DNA of 42,019 nucleotides from Spirochaetales bacterium. GTDB lineage: Bacteria; Spirochaetota; Spirochaetia; SZUA-6; JAFGRV01. Location of the stretch: contig JAFGKU010000218.1 in NCBI GenBank assembly GCA_016928415.1, forward strand, positions 1 through 42,019, in the 5' to 3' direction. Under the pieces are notes generated by a model. It saw only the letters and a program-made list of their open reading frames with translations. It searched no databases and had not been told where the DNA came from. A program made the translations under genes and the position numbers. Shown one piece after another: positions 1,188-22,144 of this stretch (position 1 is its first letter; every line of letters starts with the position of its first letter).

Positions 1188-1836
1188 TCTGGAGATTAAG
1201 GTATACAAGAACCTTATGGGCGCCAATGAGGAATGGGCCGTCAAAATCCGGTCCGTTTTAAAAGAGAAAGGCGTGAGGATGGTCAATATAATCGGCTCGC
1301 CCGGTTGCGGTAAGACAAGCCTGCTTGAGTATATAGGCAAACACGGAACAGGCGAAAAAACGCCGGTACCTTTTGCCGTGCTGGAAGGGGACGTGGAAAC
1401 GACGAAGGATGCTGAACGTCTCAATGTACTGAAAATACCCGTAAGCCAGCTTATAACGAGCGGCGGCTGCCACCTGGAGGCGAAAATGGTCTACCATGCC
1501 CTGTGCGACCTTGACCTGGACCGCATAAAGCTTGTCGTGGTGGAGAACGTGGGCAACCTGGTCTGTCCCGCCGAATTTGACCTGGGAGAGGACGCCAAGA
1601 TAGCCGTGCTCAGTATAACGGAAGGAGAAGATAAGCCCGTCAAGTATCCCATGCTGTTCAGGGAGGCGAAGGCCTGCGTATTGACAAAAATCGATTTATT
1701 GCCCCATCTTAAATTCGATCTGCCGGCCTGTCTCGAATACGTTAAGCAGGTGAATGGAAGTATCCCCGTTTTCCAGGTTTCTTCCTATACCGGTGAGGGG
1801 ATGGATGATTTTACCCGGTGGTTTATCGGTGTATAA
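1180..1836 (+). CDS. hypB: Hydrogenase/urease nickel incorporation GTPase HypB
   Basis: A SIMIBI-class GTPase of 218 aa that powers nickel insertion by HypA. The P-loop is GSPGCGKT (residues 39-46), followed by the switch segment GDVETTKDAERL (70-81) and the guanine-specificity motif TKID (169-172). The G-domain metal site is visible as C97-H98 (GGCHLEA) with C129 (NLVCPAEFD). The N-terminal CxxCGC motif and the His-rich nickel-storage region found in some HypB proteins are absent, so this is the short form. The start lies inside the end of hypA, preceded by the strong Shine-Dalgarno GGAGGTGAGGG, so the two genes are translationally linked. Confidence 0.95.
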   Translation: MSNLEIKVYKNLMGANEEWAVKIRSVLKEKGVRMVNIIGSPGCGKTSLLEYIGKHGTGEKTPVPFAVLEGDVETTKDAERLNVLKIPVSQLITSGGCHLEAKMVYHALCDLDLDRIKLVVVENVGNLVCPAEFDLGEDAKIAVLSITEGEDKPVKYPMLFREAKACVLTKIDLLPHLKFDLPACLEYVKQVNGSIPVFQVSSYTGEGMDDFTRWFIGV

Positions 1837-1877
1837 TATTATGGAGTGAATTAATATTCATTTTACAGCCCTCCGGC

Positions 1878-1906
1878 TTGAACAAATTGATGCACAATAG
1901 TATGCT
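1878..1906 (+). promoter_or_regulatory. Promoter for the dehydrogenase gene
   Basis: TTGAAC (1878-1883), 17 bp, TATGCT (1901-1906). Each hexamer matches consensus at four of six positions with ideal spacing. It would give a leader of about 80 nt before the GTG start at 1994. Confidence 0.4.
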
Positions 1907-1993
1907 TTGAACGATAGTGTTTTTCGGGCGCAATGGGAAACAGGTATGTTTTTCAGGGTGTGCCTTGATATTTCTATTTTAAGGAGAATAATT

Positions 1994-3100
1994 GTGGCAG
2001 GTAAAGAAGTTTTCCTGAGCGTGGATACGGTTCGCGGATTCATGGCCGATGTTTTTACCGGATTAGGCGTTCCCGGGGAAGAAGCGGAAATATGCGCGGA
2101 CGTACTTATCGCTTCGGATTTAAGAGGGATTGATTCGCACGGGGTCGGCCGGCTTAAGATGTATTATGACAGGATTAAGCTGAAGATTCAAAAGCCCGTG
2201 ACGAAAATAGATGTTATAAAGGAGACGGAAACCACGGCAGTTCTGGATGGAAACCACGGCATGGGCCAAGTCATCAGCACCACGGCAATGAAAATGGCCA
2301 TACAGAAGGCCCAAAAATACGGGATGGGAAGCGTGGCCGTGCGTAATTCAACCCATTATGGAATAGCCGGCTATTATCCGTTGATGGCCATAGCGGAAGG
2401 AATGATCGGACTTACCGTAACCAATGCCAGGCCTTCCATTCCACCGACATTCGGGGTAACACCTTCGCTGGGAACCAATCCCCTTACATTCGGCGTACCG
2501 ACGGATGAACCTTTTCCTTTTTTGATCGATTGTGCCACATCCATCAGTCAACGGGGGAAAATAGAGTTTTTGGACAGGGCGGAAAAACCTACGCCGGAAG
2601 GATGGGCCATAGACCAGGAGGGCAAGCCCGTAACCGATACAAAAAAACTGCTGGGTGACCTCGTGGCCGGAACGGCGGCTTTATTGCCGGTCGGCGGCGC
2701 CGGGGAACTTTTAGGCGGTCACAAGGGGTATGGATGGGCCGTCATGGTAGAGATTCTTTCGGCAGCCCTTACAAACGGGGCTTTCATGGAAGATTTAAAG
2801 GGGAAGGATAAGGATGGTAAACCGGCTCCGTATAAACTGGGGCACTTCTTTCTGGCCATCAATATAGAAAGTTTCATAGGACTTGATCAATTCAAGAAAA
2901 CCGCCGGATCCATCATGCGTGCCCTCAGAAACTCGAAAAAGGTGCCGGGAGAGGAACGCATTTATACGGCCGGAGAAAAAGAATATGAAATGGAAAAACA
3001 GAGGAGGAAGAACGGTATCCCCATAAATGAAAATCTCCAGAAAAATTTGCTGATCATGAAAAATGAACTTGGTCTGACAGGCTATGATTTTCCCTTTTAA
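1994..3100 (+). CDS. Ldh/YlbC-family (type 2) malate/L-lactate dehydrogenase
   Basis: NAD(P)-dependent 2-hydroxyacid dehydrogenase of the type-2 malate/L-lactate/ureidoglycolate family, 368 aa (family about 330-370). Diagnostic segments are DSHGVGRLKMYYDR with the catalytic histidine near residue 48, the NARPS...LGTNPLTFGVP nucleotide-binding region, and GGHKGYGWAVMVEILSAALT near the C-terminus. The frame is open from 1907, but the start is set at GTG 1994 because AAGGAG (1981-1986) lies 7 nt before it and the family N-terminus (VSVDTVRGFMADVFTGLGVP) follows directly. The substrate (malate, lactate, sulfolactate or another 2-hydroxyacid) cannot be told from sequence. Gene stands alone between hypB and the HEAT protein; a cytoplasmic enzyme. 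Confidence 0.9.
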   Translation: MAGKEVFLSVDTVRGFMADVFTGLGVPGEEAEICADVLIASDLRGIDSHGVGRLKMYYDRIKLKIQKPVTKIDVIKETETTAVLDGNHGMGQVISTTAMKMAIQKAQKYGMGSVAVRNSTHYGIAGYYPLMAIAEGMIGLTVTNARPSIPPTFGVTPSLGTNPLTFGVPTDEPFPFLIDCATSISQRGKIEFLDRAEKPTPEGWAIDQEGKPVTDTKKLLGDLVAGTAALLPVGGAGELLGGHKGYGWAVMVEILSAALTNGAFMEDLKGKDKDGKPAPYKLGHFFLAINIESFIGLDQFKKTAGSIMRALRNSKKVPGEERIYTAGEKEYEMEKQRRKNGIPINENLQKNLLIMKNELGLTGYDFPF

Positions 3101-3132
3101 TAAAGTGAGAGTCCTGTAGAGGGGGTTTGTCA

Positions 3133-4038
3133 ATGTTTGAAAACATGAGTAAAGAGGAAAAACTGGATTTACTGGAACAAATTTCCTGCAATGATGACAG
3201 CATCTTCACGAATTATACAAAGGAAATCCTGCTGCTCATGGACGATCCTGACCCGGATATAAAATTGAAAGCCATTCTTGCTTCGTGGGATTATCCTTCA
3301 ATTGGAATGTCGGAAAAGCTGCTTGATCTGGCTGAAAATGATCCCGATGAGAAAATCAGGGCAAAGGCTATCGTTGCCCTCGGAAGATATATATACGAAT
3401 TATCCTATGATGATTTTGGCATTGATTTCGGCGTGGAAGACATGAACGAAGATGAACAGAAGGAACTGGACCAGTATAAGAAAATTTCCAATTTCCTTTT
3501 ACGCATAAATAAGGATTCATCCAGTACAAAAGATGAACGGCGGTATGCCATGGAGGCCCTGAGTTTTCTGGACAGGGAAGAAATTTCGCATATGATTCAG
3601 AAAGCGTACAATTCAGGCGACCCTCTTTTAAAATTATCGGCAATATTCAGTATGGGCCGTTCGGGAATGGAGAGATGGGAAAAGGACATTCTTGCTGAAT
3701 TGAACAGTGATGACCCCATGATTATAAAAGAAGCGGTAAAAGCGGCGGGAGAATGCGGAATAAAGCAGGCGGGCAAAATCCTGCGGCGATTGACATACGC
3801 GGAGAACAGGGATTTGCAGCTTGCGGCCATATGGGCTTTGGGACAAACGGGATGGGATGAAGGATATGAAAGGCTTCAAGAACTGGCGGGAACCTTCGGC
3901 GATGAAGAGATACAGGCCTGTGCACAGCAGGCCATGGAGGAGTGGGAAGTAATGAATGCCGCTGATGAAATGGATGAAGATCTTTATGAAAACGGGGAAT
4001 TGGATCTTGAAGATAACAACGGGGAAGATCATACCTGA
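3133..4038 (+). CDS. HEAT-repeat protein, acidic
   Basis: A 301-residue, strongly acidic, all-helical protein. Several HEAT-like helical pairs can be read: DPDPDIKLKAILASWDYPS, AENDPDEKIRAKAIVALGRY, SGDPLLKLSAIFSMGRSGM, SDDPMIIKEAVKAAGECGI and AENRDLQLAAIWALGQTGW, the last resembling PBS-lyase-type HEAT repeats. The C-terminal 30 residues are almost entirely Asp/Glu/Asn. No signal peptide or membrane segment, so probably a cytoplasmic scaffold or partner-binding protein; the partner is unknown. The start is taken at ATG 3133 because AGAGGGGG ends 7 nt upstream; the in-frame TTG at 3127 is too close to that site. It follows the dehydrogenase by 32 bp and may share its transcript. Confidence 0.8.
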   Translation: MFENMSKEEKLDLLEQISCNDDSIFTNYTKEILLLMDDPDPDIKLKAILASWDYPSIGMSEKLLDLAENDPDEKIRAKAIVALGRYIYELSYDDFGIDFGVEDMNEDEQKELDQYKKISNFLLRINKDSSSTKDERRYAMEALSFLDREEISHMIQKAYNSGDPLLKLSAIFSMGRSGMERWEKDILAELNSDDPMIIKEAVKAAGECGIKQAGKILRRLTYAENRDLQLAAIWALGQTGWDEGYERLQELAGTFGDEEIQACAQQAMEEWEVMNAADEMDEDLYENGELDLEDNNGEDHT

Positions 4039-12011: not shown

Positions 12012-12128
12012 TTATGATGAGGTGCTCCTAAATTTCCGTTTTGGTAAAATTATAATTGAAGTTTTGGGGACCTTCTTTGAAAAATCAAGGGTTTTCACTG
12101 AAACCCGATAGAAACGGGATGAAAGTTG

Positions 12129-13286
12129 ATGGAAGAAAAGGCACCTATGGACCCTGAATTCGTAAAGGATACGGTCCGGAAGGCAATGGATGAATCGGAT
12201 GTTAACGGTATCAATCCCGCCCTGCGTATAATCAGGGAACTGGAGGCGGGTGCCGGGGATGAAGATGTGCTGAAGGACCTGATCTATCCCGAAACACTCC
12301 TGTTTTTCAGGTACATTTCCGAAAATTATCCGACACAATGTGTGTTAGCCGGACTAAATCCGAGAGATGAAATCCGGCTGCGGACAAAGGCAATTGACAT
12401 CCGTGAAGTCTGGAGCCAGACAAATGAATCACACCAATGGATCAAGAAGGCGGAAAAGGCTATTGCAAAGGGTGACCTTGTCCTGGCCCAAAGCTGTTTT
12501 GTGAATGCCGTGAAAATCTGGAAAGAAATCCCGAAACTGGAACAAAAGAGCTTTTCCACAATGATGATTCTTAAAACGCTCGCCGTGGACAGGACTCTGT
12601 ACTGCAGGTGGCTGAAAGATTCGGGGAAGTACAAGAAGGCCCTGACGGAATACAAGGTGACGGGGCGGTTTTTCAAAAAGCTGACGGTAAATTACCCTCA
12701 CCGAAAAGATGAATATGCCAAGTATCTATCCGGTTACGCTTCGGCCCTTCACCTTTCGGGTGATAACCGGAAATCCCTGAAATACTACTGCAAGGCGGAA
12801 TCCCTCTGGGAGAAGTTGATGAAAAAGTCGGTGAACGACAATACGGCCATCGAACTTGCGCTTTGCTATAATAACCATGTGCTTGTATTGGCGCATGTCA
12901 CGCCGGAAGTCGGGGAGGAACATTTCAGGCTTCTCAAAAGGGCGTACTACTGCCTTACGTCTGTTAAGCGGAAGACGACCGAAAGCAGGCTGTTCCTCGC
13001 CTCAACGCTTCATAAATGGGCATTGTTCCTGTTTGAATATTGTGATCAGAATCCGGGATTGAATGCCGGGCAGCTTGGAAAGCGGAAACAGGAGGCGGGC
13101 ATTATTCTCCTGGAAGCGGAGGACCACCTGGCAGAGATAACGGACTGCCGGGACAGGGATTATTACATGACTTATATAGCGATTTTGGAGCTCATACTCA
13201 ATGAATGCGACATTGAGAAGGACGGAAAAAGAAAGGAGCTCGAAGAGAAACTTGCCAAGCTGAAAAAGGAGTGGCAGAAGTATTAA
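12129..13286 (+). CDS. TPR-like helical protein of unknown function
   Basis: A 385-residue protein with no signal peptide or membrane segment. The central part is built of helix pairs with TPR-like spacing, for example the segment around IKKAEKAIAKGDLVLAQSCF, WLKDSGKYKKALTEYKV and LHLSGDNRKSLKYYCKAESL. The C-terminus is a charged coiled-coil-like helix (KRKELEEKLAKLKKEWQKY). Likely a cytoplasmic protein-protein interaction module; no enzyme motif is visible. Start taken at ATG 12129 rather than the adjacent TTG 12126; there is no good Shine-Dalgarno (GGGATGAAAG is the nearest). The stop codon overlaps that of the convergent ABC permease gene by 4 bp (TTAA). Confidence 0.75.
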   Translation: MEEKAPMDPEFVKDTVRKAMDESDVNGINPALRIIRELEAGAGDEDVLKDLIYPETLLFFRYISENYPTQCVLAGLNPRDEIRLRTKAIDIREVWSQTNESHQWIKKAEKAIAKGDLVLAQSCFVNAVKIWKEIPKLEQKSFSTMMILKTLAVDRTLYCRWLKDSGKYKKALTEYKVTGRFFKKLTVNYPHRKDEYAKYLSGYASALHLSGDNRKSLKYYCKAESLWEKLMKKSVNDNTAIELALCYNNHVLVLAHVTPEVGEEHFRLLKRAYYCLTSVKRKTTESRLFLASTLHKWALFLFEYCDQNPGLNAGQLGKRKQEAGIILLEAEDHLAEITDCRDRDYYMTYIAILELILNECDIEKDGKRKELEEKLAKLKKEWQKY

Positions 13287-14878
13287 GCTGACCCGGAGTG
13301 TTCTTCCCGGCCCAGTTGTCTTTCGGCAATCTTCCGGCCTGCAAGTTCCATGACCGCAAGAACTATGAAAAGGCCGGCCAGTAATAAACCGTAACTCGTC
13401 ATGTTTTTATAGAAAAATATTACAAACAGGTAAATCGGCAGGGGCATGACCATGCCTATGAGCATCCTGATAAACAATAAACCCATTCTTTGTCCGCGTT
13501 CGAGTTTCCGGCTGAAAGGGGTTTCAGCGAAATAGAGCAGGAACAGATTCGTCTGGATCAATGATAACAGCAATACGGTAAGGAAGTGCATCAATACGTG
13601 CACATACGCCCCGGTAAGAACCATGTAAAATACAACGAAAATCAACAGGTAGGGAACGATGAAAAAAAAGACGATGAATTTTCTTGCCGCCAGTATCATT
13701 TTTAACCGTGAGCAGGGTGTTGTATAGAAAACCCAGCTTGCTTCGGATTCCGTGGAATAAACGAGCGAGTTCTTTATATAGACCGGGAAAAATCCGATGG
13801 CTACATAAAACAGGATAGTTTTATCGAACATCTGGATGCCGGCCCGGGAAAACGGGTCCAGAATGGCCCCGCCCTGTGAGAACATGACTATGAGGAAATA
13901 CAGCACCGTAATGGGTATTATGACCAAAATACCGTTTCGGAACTGGTGATTGTACTTTAATCCGGTCCAGATCAATTTAAAAATTACCGAATCCTCCCCC
14001 GTGGCAAGACGGAGTACGCTGCGGTTTTCCCTTCGGGGTTTTTTCCGTACAATGGTCCGGTTAAGATCGGCAATTTTTTCGGCGTATTCCAGTGAAATGA
14101 CTTTTGAGCACAGGACCAGCAGTACGGGCAGGGAGATCAATGAAAGACCGGCCGCGATATTGGCGCCGATATCCGCGCCAAGCCTGAATATTGAAGGTGA
14201 CCAGGCTGCCGGTATGAACAGCCAGAAAATAGAATGACTGAAGGTAAGGACCGTTCCGCTTTCAAGTATGATTCTGGGCAGAATGATGAAAGAACCGTAT
14301 ACGGCAAAAAAAACGATCAATTGAAATATACTTGCCATGAGTTCGACGGCGCGTTTTGGCAGAATCCTGAGAATCAAGGCATAAAAAAGCGTCAAGAGCA
14401 GGCTGGTGGCAGCTCCCGTGACCAGCAATGAATAGAGGTTGCTAAGGATCAATGATAAAGGTCTTGACTGGGTAACAAGGCAGGCGGAAAAAGGTATATA
14501 GAAGAGGATGACAATGATAAAAACATACGAAAGAAGGGTAAAAATTTTGGAATAAAAATAATCAACGGCGGTGACGGGCAGACTCGAAAAATAATTGAAA
14601 TCTTCCGCGCCCGTGATGAGTATTGAATATTCCGTCATGACAAAGCTGGCAATAATCAGGGTAATATAGAGGCTGCCTATTAATGCCACTGAAAAATTGT
14701 CGGGAACCAGGTAACAAATGAGCCCCGCGGCAAAACCGGACATGATAAAAATGGCGCAGAGTGAAATTATCCTGAATACCTGACGTGCCTTTCCCGTAGA
14801 AGGCCGCCGGGAACGTACTTCCCGGATAATTGTGAACTTGATGATGGTAAAAATCTGTCTGAAATCCGGCTTACGCAT
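13283..14878 (-). CDS. ABC-2-type transporter permease
   Basis: A 531-residue integral membrane protein with about a dozen hydrophobic segments and a basic cytoplasmic N-terminus (KFTIIREVRSRRPSTGKAR). It is encoded 3 bp downstream of the ABC ATPase on the same strand, so it is the membrane half of that exporter. Large two-block permeases of this kind occur in bacterial ABC-2 exporters for peptides, lipids or drugs; the substrate cannot be inferred. The stop codon shares TTAA with the convergent TPR gene, leaving no room for a terminator between them. Confidence 0.85.
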   Translation of the reverse strand: MRKPDFRQIFTIIKFTIIREVRSRRPSTGKARQVFRIISLCAIFIMSGFAAGLICYLVPDNFSVALIGSLYITLIIASFVMTEYSILITGAEDFNYFSSLPVTAVDYFYSKIFTLLSYVFIIVILFYIPFSACLVTQSRPLSLILSNLYSLLVTGAATSLLLTLFYALILRILPKRAVELMASIFQLIVFFAVYGSFIILPRIILESGTVLTFSHSIFWLFIPAAWSPSIFRLGADIGANIAAGLSLISLPVLLVLCSKVISLEYAEKIADLNRTIVRKKPRRENRSVLRLATGEDSVIFKLIWTGLKYNHQFRNGILVIIPITVLYFLIVMFSQGGAILDPFSRAGIQMFDKTILFYVAIGFFPVYIKNSLVYSTESEASWVFYTTPCSRLKMILAARKFIVFFFIVPYLLIFVVFYMVLTGAYVHVLMHFLTVLLLSLIQTNLFLLYFAETPFSRKLERGQRMGLLFIRMLIGMVMPLPIYLFVIFFYKNMTSYGLLLAGLFIVLAVMELAGRKIAERQLGREEHSGSA

Positions 14879-14881
14879 TTA

Positions 14882-15643
14882 TTATTTCAGCGCATTAATG
14901 ATGTCGAGCGCCTCTCTCTCAATATCCTTTCTTCCTGTCAGCTTGATAAAAGCCTTTTCCAGGTCTGCGCAGCCCGTTTCCGCCAGTATCTGCTCAACCG
15001 TGCCGCTTGAGAGGATTTTGCCCTTGTCCATTATCGCGATTTCATCGCATAATTTTTCCACCACCTCCAGTATATGTGATGAAAAAAGAATCGTTTTTCC
15101 CATGGCGGAAAAAGAACGGAGCGTTTCTTTCAATACCGCCGCCGCATTGGCATCCAGGCCGTTAAGCGGTTCGTCCAGGATGAATATGTCGGGGTTGTGC
15201 AAAAGGGCCGAGACGATGACGAGCTTTTGAATCATGCCCTTGGAGTAGGTAATAATGGGATCGTCCTTTTTTTTCGTTATACCGAACTTCCCCAGAAGTT
15301 CGCTTGCGCGTCCGGCAATGACAGACGGGTCAACATGGTACAATTGCGCGGTCATCGTGAGAAATTCCTGGCCGGTCAAATTAGTGAAAACATACGGCAC
15401 CTCGGGCACATACCCGATCATCGCCTTTGTTTCCACGGGGAATTCGGTGATGTCTTTCCCGTTTACCAGTATACTGCCTTTTGTCGGTTTCAAGGCGCCG
15501 ACTATGGTTTTGACGATTGTTGATTTCCCTGCACCGTTTGGTCCCAGCAGTCCAAAGACAATCCCGGGCTTAATGGTGAGATCAATGGCATCCACTGCGA
15601 GCGAATTGCCGAACCGGCGGGAAAACTCAATTATTTCTATCAT
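14882..15643 (-). CDS. ABC transporter ATP-binding protein
   Basis: The nucleotide-binding subunit (253 aa) of an ABC-2 exporter. Walker A is GPNGAGKST (residues 34-42), the Q-loop region lies near GYVPEVPYVF, the signature is the variant YSKGMIQK rather than LSGGQ, Walker B is IFILDEPLNGLDA and the switch histidine is in FSSHILE. The relaxed signature YSKGM is common in ABC-2 drug and antibiotic exporters (DrrA-like). It precedes the permease by 3 bp. Its promoter region is shared with the divergent fusion gene at 15744, and the candidate -10 ends 8 bp before the ATG without a clear ribosome-binding site. Confidence 0.92.
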   Translation of the reverse strand: MIEIIEFSRRFGNSLAVDAIDLTIKPGIVFGLLGPNGAGKSTIVKTIVGALKPTKGSILVNGKDITEFPVETKAMIGYVPEVPYVFTNLTGQEFLTMTAQLYHVDPSVIAGRASELLGKFGITKKKDDPIITYSKGMIQKLVIVSALLHNPDIFILDEPLNGLDANAAAVLKETLRSFSAMGKTILFSSHILEVVEKLCDEIAIMDKGKILSSGTVEQILAETGCADLEKAFIKLTGRKDIEREALDIINALK

Positions 15644-15743: not shown

Positions 15744-18062
15744 ATGGACGTAATTTCTTTTTTATCCAGCCATGTGCCCTTGTTCAAGGGATTCCCGGAA
15801 ACGAAAATAAAGGAGTTGCTCGCCGTCTCCCGCGTTATGCCTTTTGAACCCAATGAGGCAATCATAGAATACGGTGAAAAGGGTGAATTTTTAGGCGTGC
15901 TGTTAAGCGGTGAGGCGTTCGTATCCATAACCACCGACTCCGGTGATTCCGTTGAAGTGGCAAGGATAAAGCCCGGTGAAATTTTCGGGGAGATGTCGCT
16001 GATGACCGGGGAAAAGACGATTGCCGATGTCATCGGCCTTACGCAATGCTCGGCCTTGCTGATACCTCAAAGCTATTTCGCCATTCTTATCGCCACCAGT
16101 CCCGAGGCGATCAAATATATTTCCCGGATCATCTCGGAGAGGCTGAAAACTTTCCCGAGGGTAAACGAACAGGAAGGTATTTCCGATGTATCCGCAGCGG
16201 CTAAAGCAGCGGACCCCTACAGCCTGAAGTTGAAAAGCAAAAGCCCGATGAAACTTCTTGTCCTGAGGTCAAGCCCCCATTTTCTCAAGTACAACCTTTT
16301 CAGCACCGCGGATGAGACGCATAATATTTCCGGGTATATCGAGCACGTTAACGGCGGAGAGGCTGTGCATTCCATCCTGTATCACGGGCGGAGAGAGGAG
16401 GCGGCCTGCGGGAAAGTTGACCACACGGAGGCCGTACGGCTTGTGTTCAAGGCGATCGGGGAAAAATTGGAAAGCCTCCCTGAAAAGGAAAGGGTTGTCG
16501 GGGCCTGCGGGCACAGGGTCGTCCACGGCGGTGACGCGCTGTTGAACTCCGTTGTCATAGATGATAAGGTAATCAATGAAATTCAGGCGGCATCCGTACT
16601 GGCGCCCAATCATAACCCTGTCAATCTGGCATGCATCCGGGAAGCGATACGGCTGTTTCCGGACATACCGCACGTTGCCGTGTTCGATACTTCCTTTCAC
16701 CATACTCTACCACCCTACGCGTATCTTTACGGCCTTCCTTACGGGCTGTACGAGGAAAAGAGAATCAGGCGGTACGGTTTCCAGGGCATGTTCCATGGAT
16801 ACACCGCATTGAAAGCGGCCGAGTTTTTAAAACGGCCTTACAACGAGCTGGAGGTCATCAGTTGTCATTTGGGCGGCAGCGCTTCCGTCTGCGCGGTCGA
16901 CCATGGGCGCTCGGTGGACGTTTCCATGGGATTCACCCCGCAGGAAGGGCTGCTGATGGATACACGGAGCGGGGATATTGATCCGTCCATCCTCTCCCAC
17001 CTCATTATAAACGAGAAAATGACCCCGGAGCAGGTGAGGGATCTTTTTGAAAAAGAAGGCGGATTAAAAGGCCTGTCCGGCATTTCCGATGACATGGTGG
17101 AAATTGAAAACGCGGCTAATGACGGGAATTCACGGGCCATTCTTACCGTTAAATCATATGGTTACAGGGTAAAAAAATACATTGGCTCATACATGGCGGC
17201 CATGGGTGGATTGGATGTCCTTGCCTTTTCGGGCGGTATCGGGCAGGGAAGCGCCTTTATACGGAGTCTTGCCTGTCAGGGGCTTGCCTGTATGGGCATC
17301 GTGATTGATGAGGCAAAAAATAAAAAGGCCCTGGACCCCGACCGGATCTATGACATTTCGGGAAGCGCCTCACAGGTTAAAATACTTGTCATGCCTGCCA
17401 GGGAGGAGAAGATGATCGCCCGTGAGACGCTGCGTGTACTCGGGCATGATTATGTGACGAAAATCATTCACAGCCAGGAACCGATGGTGATCCCGCTGGA
17501 AGTATCCGCCCATCATCTTCATTTAAGCCAGGATCATGTGGAAGCGTTATTCGGGCCCGGTCATCAACTCACGAGATTGGCGGATCTTTCCCAGCCCGGC
17601 CAGTTCGCGTGTGAAGAAACGGTGGATTTGATCGGTCCCAAAGGTCTCGTGAAAAAGGTGAGGGTTTTGGGTCCGGCCAGGAAGGAAACACAAGTTGAAA
17701 TAGCCATGACAGAACAATATAAGCTTGGCGTGCTTCCGCCCATCAGGCAAAGCGGCGATTTGAAGGGAAGCCCCGGCATCACCATCCAGGCTAACGGAAA
17801 TACCCTGACAATAGACCACGGGGTCATCTGCGCGCTCAGGCATATCCATATGTCCACCGAGGAGGCATTGAAATTCGGACTGCATGACCGGGATGTTGTA
17901 CGAATCCGGGTCCAGGGCGACCGGGAGCTGATATTCGGGGATGTCCTGGTCAGGGTAAATCCCAATTACCGGCTTGCCATGCATATTGATACGGACGAGG
18001 CCAACGCGGCCAACATTAAAACGGGAATGATCGGTTATCTGGACGGCATTCAAAGCCGATAA
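15744..18062 (+). CDS. Three-domain fusion: cNMP-binding fold, degenerate acetate kinase, PduL phosphotransacylase
   Basis: A 772-residue fusion. Residues about 8-140 form a cyclic-nucleotide-binding (CRP/cAMP-kinase-type) fold with GEIFGEMSLMTGEKTIADV; the Arg that usually holds the cyclic phosphate is replaced (KT). Residues 169-570 are an acetate-kinase fold: GHRVVHGG (R258), APNHNP (H290), FDTSFHHTLPPYAYLYGLP (D315), CHLGG (H375), MDTRSGDIDP (R408) and E554 are kept. Against Methanosarcina AckA, N7, S10, S12, H180 and N211 are R175, P178, F180, Q347 and G378. Residues about 580-770 are PduL, with both metal-binding His motifs (SAHHLHLS, ALRHIHMS) and HIDTDEANAA. PduL makes acyl phosphate from acyl-CoA; a working kinase would then make ATP. 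Here kinase activity is doubtful. No frameshift is seen. Confidence 0.9.
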   Translation: MDVISFLSSHVPLFKGFPETKIKELLAVSRVMPFEPNEAIIEYGEKGEFLGVLLSGEAFVSITTDSGDSVEVARIKPGEIFGEMSLMTGEKTIADVIGLTQCSALLIPQSYFAILIATSPEAIKYISRIISERLKTFPRVNEQEGISDVSAAAKAADPYSLKLKSKSPMKLLVLRSSPHFLKYNLFSTADETHNISGYIEHVNGGEAVHSILYHGRREEAACGKVDHTEAVRLVFKAIGEKLESLPEKERVVGACGHRVVHGGDALLNSVVIDDKVINEIQAASVLAPNHNPVNLACIREAIRLFPDIPHVAVFDTSFHHTLPPYAYLYGLPYGLYEEKRIRRYGFQGMFHGYTALKAAEFLKRPYNELEVISCHLGGSASVCAVDHGRSVDVSMGFTPQEGLLMDTRSGDIDPSILSHLIINEKMTPEQVRDLFEKEGGLKGLSGISDDMVEIENAANDGNSRAILTVKSYGYRVKKYIGSYMAAMGGLDVLAFSGGIGQGSAFIRSLACQGLACMGIVIDEAKNKKALDPDRIYDISGSASQVKILVMPAREEKMIARETLRVLGHDYVTKIIHSQEPMVIPLEVSAHHLHLSQDHVEALFGPGHQLTRLADLSQPGQFACEETVDLIGPKGLVKKVRVLGPARKETQVEIAMTEQYKLGVLPPIRQSGDLKGSPGITIQANGNTLTIDHGVICALRHIHMSTEEALKFGLHDRDVVRIRVQGDRELIFGDVLVRVNPNYRLAMHIDTDEANAANIKTGMIGYLDGIQSR

Positions 18063-20516: not shown

Positions 20517-20560
20517 ATACCTTAATATTATTAATATTGATATTGACATTATTAAGGTAT
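20517..20560. promoter_or_regulatory. 11-bp inverted repeat and promoter before DUF2089 gene
   Basis: ATACCTTAATA (20517-20527) and TATTAAGGTAT (20550-20560) are perfect inverted copies, 22 bp apart. A perfect -35 TTGACA (20543-20548) sits just before the right arm, with a weak -10 TAGCTT at 20566-20571. An operator for the HTH-containing DUF2089 protein encoded next (autoregulation) is a natural guess. Confidence 0.45.
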
Positions 20561-20590
20561 TTTTTTAGCTTTATGGAGAGAGGAGGTGAA

Positions 20591-20950
20591 ATGAAGGATA
20601 TTATGGGGGCCTGCCCTGTCTGTCAAAAGGAATTATTTGTTACGGAATACCATTGCCCGGAATGCGATATCACATTCAAAGGGCATTTCAAGCGTTGTGA
20701 TCTCTGTAATTTACCCGAAGACCTTATCTATTTTGTAAAAGTATTTTTAAAAGCCGAGGGTAATCTAAAAGAAGTGGAAAAAAACATCGGGATTTCGTAT
20801 CCCACGATAAAATCACGTCTTGCCAGGATCAACCAGATTTTATCGCTGGGAAAATTCAAGGATCTTTTGAAGGCGGATGACAGGCTTGCCCTGTTAATGG
20901 ACTTCAAGGAGGGCAAAATCTCCATGGAAGACCTGATGGACCTGATATAA
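20591..20950 (+). CDS. DUF2089-family zinc-ribbon/HTH regulator
   Basis: A 119-residue protein with an N-terminal zinc-ribbon-like part containing two CxxC pairs and a third (CPVCQ, CPEC, CDLCNLP), then a helix-turn-helix-like region (VEKNIGISYPTIKSRLARI) and a C-terminal LMDFKEGKISMEDLMDLI segment. This layout is that of DUF2089 proteins, thought to be transcriptional regulators. The start is ATG 20591, 2 nt after AGGAGGTGA; the open frame reaches back to 20537 but lacks a ribosome-binding site there. The following gene encodes a DUF4097 protein whose tail carries a similar EGKIS-E motif, so the two probably act together in an envelope-stress-type system. Confidence 0.85.
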   Translation: MKDIMGACPVCQKELFVTEYHCPECDITFKGHFKRCDLCNLPEDLIYFVKVFLKAEGNLKEVEKNIGISYPTIKSRLARINQILSLGKFKDLLKADDRLALLMDFKEGKISMEDLMDLI

Positions 20951-20953
20951 AAA

Positions 20954-20996
20954 GCCGGGATCATCAGTAAATCGGCAATTTCAGATGAATCCCGGC
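20954..20996. promoter_or_regulatory. Hairpin between DUF2089 and DUF4097 genes
   Basis: GCCGGGATCATC (20954-20965) pairs with GATGAATCCCGGC (20984-20996) with a one-base bulge. No T-run follows on the plus strand, so it is not a standard terminator for this transcript; it may stabilise mRNA ends or lower expression of the downstream gene. Confidence 0.45.
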
Positions 20997-21052
20997 AAAT
21001 AGAAGAACCGGCCGCTTTGGCAACCGGAAACAACCGCATTGGGAGGAAATAA

Positions 21053-22144
21053 ATGCAATCAAATTATAATTTATCTATTGAAAAAGGAAAAGAGGTATTA
21101 ATACAGGGAAACAACAATCATATAGAAATAGTCGGCGAAGAAATTGAATCCCCGTTCGTCAGCGTAGAATCGGCAAATGACTTCTGTTGTATGGAAACAG
21201 GGGAGGAGAAGGAAGGGGACAAGGATATAAGCAGCGCCCTTGAAATTCTCGATGAAGATAAAATGTTTATCCGGCTTAAACAGGACATGTTCAAGCATTA
21301 CGTTTTCCATTTTCCCGCGTCATGGGAACAACGGCTCTCCATCGAGTTGAGTAACGGGAAAATATTCCTGAAGAATATAAACGGTGCCCTGAAGGCACGC
21401 TCTTCCAATGGAAGTGTTGAAATGGAAAACATTTCCGGCGATATAACTTCGATAAGTTCAAACGGTTCTGTCCGGGGTAACAAGGTGACGGGAACGATCG
21501 ATATATCGGCGTCAAACGGCAGGGTTGTCCTTCGGGAGTCATTTTTCAACAGCGGATCGATTAAAAGCGGTAACGGTAAAATTTCCCTGCAGCTTGACGG
21601 CGCCGGTGCCGGGAATGTGAATTTGTTTTCGGGAAACGGCAGGATAAAACTCGCACTGAAGGATGATCTGAACGGATTGATCAAGGTTCAGACACGGGGA
21701 AAACTGGTAAACCACCTGGAAGGGTATACCGTCATGACGGATAAAGATATAACGACACTGAAAAAAGGCGATGGGGATTACCAGATTTATATTGCCAACT
21801 TTTCAGGCGGCGTCCGCCTGATGGGATATGATGATTTTGACAAGAAATGGCCGGATGAAGATTTTGAATTCAGGTTTGAAACGGAATTCAATCCCGGCGA
21901 TTTTTTTGAACATATTTTTCATCATGGCTTCGGCCGCGGTTTCCCGGGATTCATCCATAAAATCATCCGCATGGGAGATAAATTCGGTAAAATGGGTGAG
22001 GAAATGTCCCGAAATTTCTGGGAATCCAAACCGGAAAAAGAGGAGCATGAGGAAGAGATTCGAATGGTGCTGACAATGCTGAAGGAAGGTAAAATATCAA
22101 CCGAGGAGGCGGAGCGGCTGATCAACGCCATTAAGTCCAAATAA
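21053..22144 (+). CDS. DUF4097/YvlB-like beta-repeat protein with SHOCT-like tail
   Basis: A 363-residue protein. The middle (about residues 95-235) is a series of short beta-strand repeats typical of DUF4097, a putative adhesin-like beta-helix: IELSNGKIFLKNINGALKAR, SSNGSVEMENISGDITSI, SSNGSVRGNKVTGTIDI, SASNGRVVL. The C-terminal segment EEEIRMVLTMLKEGKISTEEAERLINAI is the SHOCT-like tail also found in Bacillus YvlB. No signal peptide is visible, so it is probably cytoplasmic or peripheral. GGGAGGAAAT gives a good start at ATG 21053. Forms a pair with the DUF2089 regulator; ends 6 bp from the convergent fur gene. Confidence 0.87.
   Translation: MQSNYNLSIEKGKEVLIQGNNNHIEIVGEEIESPFVSVESANDFCCMETGEEKEGDKDISSALEILDEDKMFIRLKQDMFKHYVFHFPASWEQRLSIELSNGKIFLKNINGALKARSSNGSVEMENISGDITSISSNGSVRGNKVTGTIDISASNGRVVLRESFFNSGSIKSGNGKISLQLDGAGAGNVNLFSGNGRIKLALKDDLNGLIKVQTRGKLVNHLEGYTVMTDKDITTLKKGDGDYQIYIANFSGGVRLMGYDDFDKKWPDEDFEFRFETEFNPGDFFEHIFHHGFGRGFPGFIHKIIRMGDKFGKMGEEMSRNFWESKPEKEEHEEEIRMVLTMLKEGKISTEEAERLINAIKSK

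Follow-up and report, generated by a model that had tools for sequence, protein, structure and literature searches.

A sensor-kinase-PduL fusion protein of a Spirochaetales bacterium with an intact PduL domain and a probable pseudokinase derived from acetate kinase

A gene in the window (the whole 42,019-nucleotide stretch of DNA that was analysed) encodes a 772-aa protein in which a CRP-like domain, an acetate kinase domain and a PduL phosphotransacylase domain are joined in one chain. The kinase domain is catalytically degenerate and has kept its fold, and the PduL domain is intact. We consider it probable, with moderate confidence, that the protein is a phosphotransacylase of the PduL type and that its fused kinase turned into a pseudokinase scaffold once a different acetate kinase (AckA) had taken over.

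The gene lies at 15744..18062 on the + strand and forms one ATG open reading frame. Three Pfam domains scored above their cut-offs in the order PF00027, PF00871 and PF06130, namely cNMP_binding at residues 33-118 (E 3e-17), Acetate_kinase at residues 171-560 (E 1e-115) and PTAC/PduL at residues 585-759 (E 9e-75). The CRP/cNMP-binding fold extended over residues ~5-136 (15756..16151, + strand) in the alignment to the bacterial cAMP-binding protein 7pza, the acetate kinase domain over residues 169-567 (16248..17444, + strand), and the PduL domain over residues 580-770 (17481..18053, + strand) in the alignment to PDB 5cuo. The single frame and the three domains agree with the original prediction. 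An AlphaFold2 model of the protein, built from a four-sequence alignment, was of low quality (mean pLDDT 53, pTM 0.43).

A search for the same domain order, which had been proposed as a check, found the fusion with the same order and length in 28 other genomes. A join of three genes or an assembly artefact was rejected on this ground. A compensated frameshift over NCGSSS was also rejected: neither NCGSSS nor the other motifs were restored in any other frame, and the flanking DNA aligned gap-free to an intact relative.

The gene neighbourhood was compared across 14 regions. Conserved neighbours were found only among close relatives, and the context gave no functional clue. An ABC ATPase gene (14882-15643) adjoins a gene for a 531-aa probable ABC permease, which lies with that of a 386-aa protein at 12126-14878; neither of these two proteins had a Pfam match. 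At 20537-22144, a DUF2089-type HTH/zinc-ribbon gene is followed by a gene with a DUF2089-C SHOCT-like end, so that the parts of a DUF2089 protein lie on adjoining genes.

Whole-genome searches gave 29 three-domain proteins including that of the window, with 6 in the window's order (Spirochaetota), 11 in Fibrobacterota and 12 in Planctomycetota. The 28 other fusions are L002, L003, L012-L016, L046-L055, L061-L070 and L156, and their Pfam domains were checked on examples. A contig scan with one genome per species had already given full-length relatives from three sources, namely a Spirochaetales bacterium, a Planctomycete (Candidatus Anammoximicrobium) and a Chitinivibrionales bacterium. The window protein shared 50-60% identity with the fusions of its own order. 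Kinase motifs were normal (NCGSSS, HGxSH, HLGN) in 26 of the 29 proteins, with exceptions at known sites comprising N211S in L067 and changes at F179 in L055 and L070. The three-domain architecture is widespread, and its kinase is normally intact. Forms without the sensor also exist as AckA-PduL proteins of ~610-650 aa. Sensor-AckA proteins that end before PduL were observed at L056 (G480, 1501-3189) and L072 (G955). A PduL domain was found nowhere in the G480 genome; therefore, the sensor domain can also join the kinase alone.

The residues of the window kinase were numbered by alignment to the acetate kinase of Methanosarcina thermophila (PDB 1g99/1tuu). This alignment confirmed the five substitutions that had been read from the sequence, N7>R175, S10>P178, S12>F180, H180>Q347 and N211>G378, and likewise the six kept residues R91, H123, D148, H208, R241 and E384, which correspond to R258, H290, D315, H375, R408 and E554. 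Four further substitutions, S11>H179, L122>N289, G239>D406 and R285>V452, were added. The PHOSPHATE1 motif NCGSSS was lost and reads RSSPHF at residues 175-180 (16266..16283, + strand); its positions N7-S10-S11-S12-K14 read R, P, H, F and K, so that four of the five residues were replaced. The equivalent of His180 was Gln347 in a QGMFH segment in place of HGTSH (16782..16784, + strand), that of Asn211 in PHOSPHATE2 was Gly378 (16875..16877, + strand), and that of Gly239 in LOOP3 was Asp406 (16959..16961, + strand). At H180, N211 and G239, where an active kinase would be recognised, the window protein thus has Q, G and D. The catalytic residues R91, D148, R241 and E384 were all present. Residues that have been assigned to the acetate and catalytic side were retained, and those that were lost belong mainly to the nucleotide loops.

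In M. thermophila AckA, a single change of N211 or G239 cuts activity 6- to 200-fold, with a loss of ~200-fold on replacement by Ser (PMC4390882). Because N211 and G239 were both replaced, together with H180 and four of the five PHOSPHATE1 residues, the window protein has very probably lost the step from acetyl-phosphate to ATP. It is very unlikely that its kinase domain still functions as an ATP acetate kinase. Bifunctional channelling by an Ack-PduL protein calls for both active sites to be intact, and the kinase site of the window protein is lost.

Two other fusions, L015 (G017) and L016 (G012), also carried degenerate kinases, so that the total was 3 of 29. Both belong to another family within the window's order, and their substitutions differ from those of the window protein. 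L015 showed S10I, K14H, H123N, N211K and G331S. L016 showed N7S, S10G, S11D, S12E, K14D, R91H, H123L, N211R, R241S, G331A and E384P. The five substitutions of the window protein are therefore not fixed in the family, and homologues with normal motifs, which had been named as a sign of a single damaged gene, are in the majority. The conclusion that this is one damaged gene did not follow, since L015 and L016 are degenerate through different substitutions and the window copy is no lone accident.

The number of kinase losses was considered on phylogenetic trees. The PduL tree placed the window protein next to the intact fusions of its family (98/94), away from L015 and L016. In the tree of sensor plus PduL, it grouped weakly with the degenerate members (48/82). 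Neither topology was rejected by AU tests (0.49 and 0.24). Two losses are favoured by the family assignments and by the differences among the substitutions, but we claim no more than that at least one took place.

The distribution of separate acetate kinases was compared with the state of the fused kinase. The window genome contains a separate AckA (G000:C227:8937-10142). Each of the three genomes with a degenerate fusion (G000, G012, G017) carried a separate, canonical-looking AckA, and these AckAs formed one strongly supported clade apart from the fused kinases in the kinase tree. Within the window's family, G001, G002 and G004, whose fused kinase is intact, showed no AckA beyond the fused one. 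Overall, an additional AckA was present in 3/3 degenerate-fusion genomes versus 4/25 intact-fusion genomes (Fisher p 0.011, with kinship ignored and the three degenerate genomes all from one order). The separate AckAs of the window's order (L005/L030, G000:C227:8937-10142) have Phe or Leu at His184 (HGTSF/L), and the other catalytic residues that were checked are kept. Because Phe stands at the His184 position in the window genome's copy, the activity of this enzyme is itself a presumption.

The PduL domain was then compared with known PduL sequences. The zinc ligands of the reference PduL are given as His48, His50, Glu109, His157, His159 and His204 in PMC4784909. In the alignment to PDB 5cuo, the window protein has the complete set as H591, H593, E652, H700, H702 and H747. 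With PF06130 covered at full length and 0/56 invariant columns altered, PduL was intact as predicted. The window protein would thus be an active PduL phosphotransacylase. The fused PduL is the sole PduL of the window genome. Only two PTA_PTB matches were found in this genome, both weak, partial and phosphotransbutyrylase-like; relatives have a full Pta, and with the window genome 85% complete its absence there is unproven. At G000:C189:13382-15489, a PTA_PTB-like frame adjoins an acetate/butyrate-kinase-like frame, which suggests a phosphotransbutyrylase/butyrate kinase pair.

In a genome from the family of L015 and L016 (G007), a stand-alone PduL of 204 aa (L112, G007:C62, 1468-2082) grouped within the PduLs of the fusions, and this genome also has a separate AckA. 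L112 may tentatively be read as a fission product and a possible end of the same road, with the caution that its branch is long.

The CRP-like domain matched the PF00027 profile in fold. In its phosphate-binding cassette, Glu83 was kept, and the canonical Arg, which we take to be the residue that holds the cyclic phosphate (CRP R82, PKA R209), was replaced by Thr92 in the alignment to 7pza. This position was Thr, Ser, Asn or Met in the 28 aligned fusion members, and Arg in 0/28. Because the canonical Arg is missing in all of them, the proposal of a cNMP sensor is doubtful. Class III cyclase domains were abundant in the fusion-bearing genomes, with 17 matches in the window genome; therefore, cyclic nucleotides may exist in these genomes. 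Regulation of the window protein through the sensor domain is presumed.

The favoured reading can be set out as a series of steps. In an intact fusion, PduL most likely converts acetyl-CoA and Pi to acetyl-phosphate, and the kinase converts acetyl-phosphate and ADP to acetate and ATP, in line with the proposal made for Ack-PduL fusions (PMC4784909). The ancestor was probably such a bifunctional fusion, in which PduL passed acetyl-phosphate to the fused kinase under an N-terminal CRP-like regulatory domain. The separate acetate kinase (G000:C227:8937-10142) would have rendered the fused kinase dispensable. The loops that bind nucleotide phosphates would then have been lost, and the fold retained, probably to hold PduL and the sensor in the right quaternary arrangement. 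The present protein would act as a phosphate acetyltransferase of the PduL type (acetyl-CoA + Pi <-> acetyl-phosphate + CoA, with the acyl chain presumed), and the freed acetyl-phosphate may go to the separate kinase or to other uses.

The production of acetyl-phosphate is normally coupled to its conversion to ATP. A bolder form of the favoured reading is that the pseudokinase, which arose in the middle of the three-domain enzyme, was retained to couple regulation: a CRP-like sensor of a non-cAMP signal would control PduL through an AckA fold that may bind without phosphorylating any longer, uncoupling acetyl-phosphate formation from ATP production. We regard this form as tentative and rather doubtful.

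The constraint on each domain was compared over invariant columns defined on 25 intact aligned proteins (80 columns in the kinase, 56 in PduL). The altered kinase columns numbered 16 in the window protein, 8 in L015 and 27 in L016, versus 0, 1 and 3 altered PduL columns, respectively. In leave-one-out controls, intact proteins mostly had 0-2 altered kinase columns, with a maximum of 8/88. In the kinase tree, the end branch of the window protein measured 1.06 changes per site, compared to 0.27 for the intact relative L012; in the PduL tree, the two values were 0.29 and 0.23. The loss is restricted to the kinase, where it falls mainly on catalytic positions.

This strong acceleration of the kinase branch would also be expected from passenger decay, in which a functionless kinase drifts towards loss and stays in frame only since PduL lies downstream. 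The stand-alone PduL of G007 inside the fusion PduL group, next to a separate AckA, looks as if a front part had been lost in the same way. However, hydrophobic core positions were kept at 114/118 in the window kinase, while a neutral simulation kept a mean of ~104 and 0/2000 runs reached 114; the value for L016 was 111/118 (P about 0.05). This simulation was lenient, with excess divergence only. Furthermore, the kinase domain still scored 385 bits on TIGR00016 (cut-off 293), as a member of the acetate kinase family, and a shortened kinase was seen in no three-domain member. Because catalytic positions were lost while the core was kept, selection on the window's domain seems to have maintained the fold rather than the reaction, and passenger decay is an unlikely explanation.

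The kinase fold could instead serve as a ligand sensor or act on another phosphoryl acceptor. In the window protein, the nucleotide-phosphate side is lost and the acyl/acetate side (R91, R241, D148, E384, V93, P232) is kept, so that binding of acetate or acetyl-phosphate might be signalled to PduL. However, Leu122 of the acetate pocket is Asn, and R91 and R241 are also lost in L016, so that the role would not be common to the degenerate members. We consider this reading improbable, and nothing found pointed to a new phosphoryl acceptor. The scaffold, one of the roles that the original prediction gave the kinase fold, fits the catalytic loss with a kept core. These data do not separate it from other reasons for fold retention; the scaffold is favoured, with a passive remnant and ligand binding as its rivals.

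A kinase still active at useful rates, with a rearranged site or an altered phosphoryl donor, would account for the main catalytic residues R91, D148, R241 and E384 that remain. With N7, S10, S11, S12, H180, N211 and G239 all replaced, and single changes of N211 or G239 as costly as they are in M. thermophila, this is very unlikely. Finally, a damaged single gene or assembly artefact might be suspected from the fragmented source assembly (243 contigs), but it is highly improbable given the uninterrupted frame, the exclusion of a frameshift, the untouched PduL and the two further genomes whose fusions are intact except for a degenerate kinase.

On the reading of a pseudokinase scaffold, the family offers a natural series of intact-kinase fusions, dead-kinase fusions accompanied by a separate AckA, and a genome in which PduL and AckA stand apart. 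With this series, one could test whether a metabolic enzyme can use a pseudokinase domain as a scaffold or an allosteric coupler, and which signal is sensed by a CRP-like domain that lacks the cyclic-phosphate Arg. Annotation pipelines will label the window protein an acetate kinase, which it probably is not.

Ack-PduL (PTAC) fusions were noted by Erbilgin et al. 2016, who proposed acyl-phosphate channelling (PMC4784909). We found no description of a sensor-bearing Ack-PduL fusion or of an acetate kinase pseudoenzyme in the open-access literature; the fusions as such are known, and the sensor-bearing form and the pseudokinase are apparently unreported there. The fusions of Erbilgin et al. likewise join an acetate kinase to two PF06130 (PduL) halves, and an N-terminal CRP-like domain and loss of the kinase site are unmentioned in the passage on them (PMC4784909). 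The three-domain cNMP-AckA-PduL relatives share the domain order and length of the window protein but, unlike it, have canonical kinase motifs in 26 of 29 cases. The acetate kinases of M. thermophila (1g99/1tuu) and PDB 2iir aligned over their full length (E 1e-91 or better) with R91, D148, R241 and E384 kept, whereas N7/S10/S11/S12, H180, N211, G239, L122 and R285 of the M. thermophila enzyme are replaced. With CRP/PKA-type domains (PDB 7pza, PKA regulatory subunits), the window protein shares the fold and the FGE of the cassette, but it has Thr92 at the cyclic-phosphate Arg. With the PduL structure PDB 5cuo, it shares all zinc ligands and the flanking motifs, and its PduL is fused behind two upstream domains.
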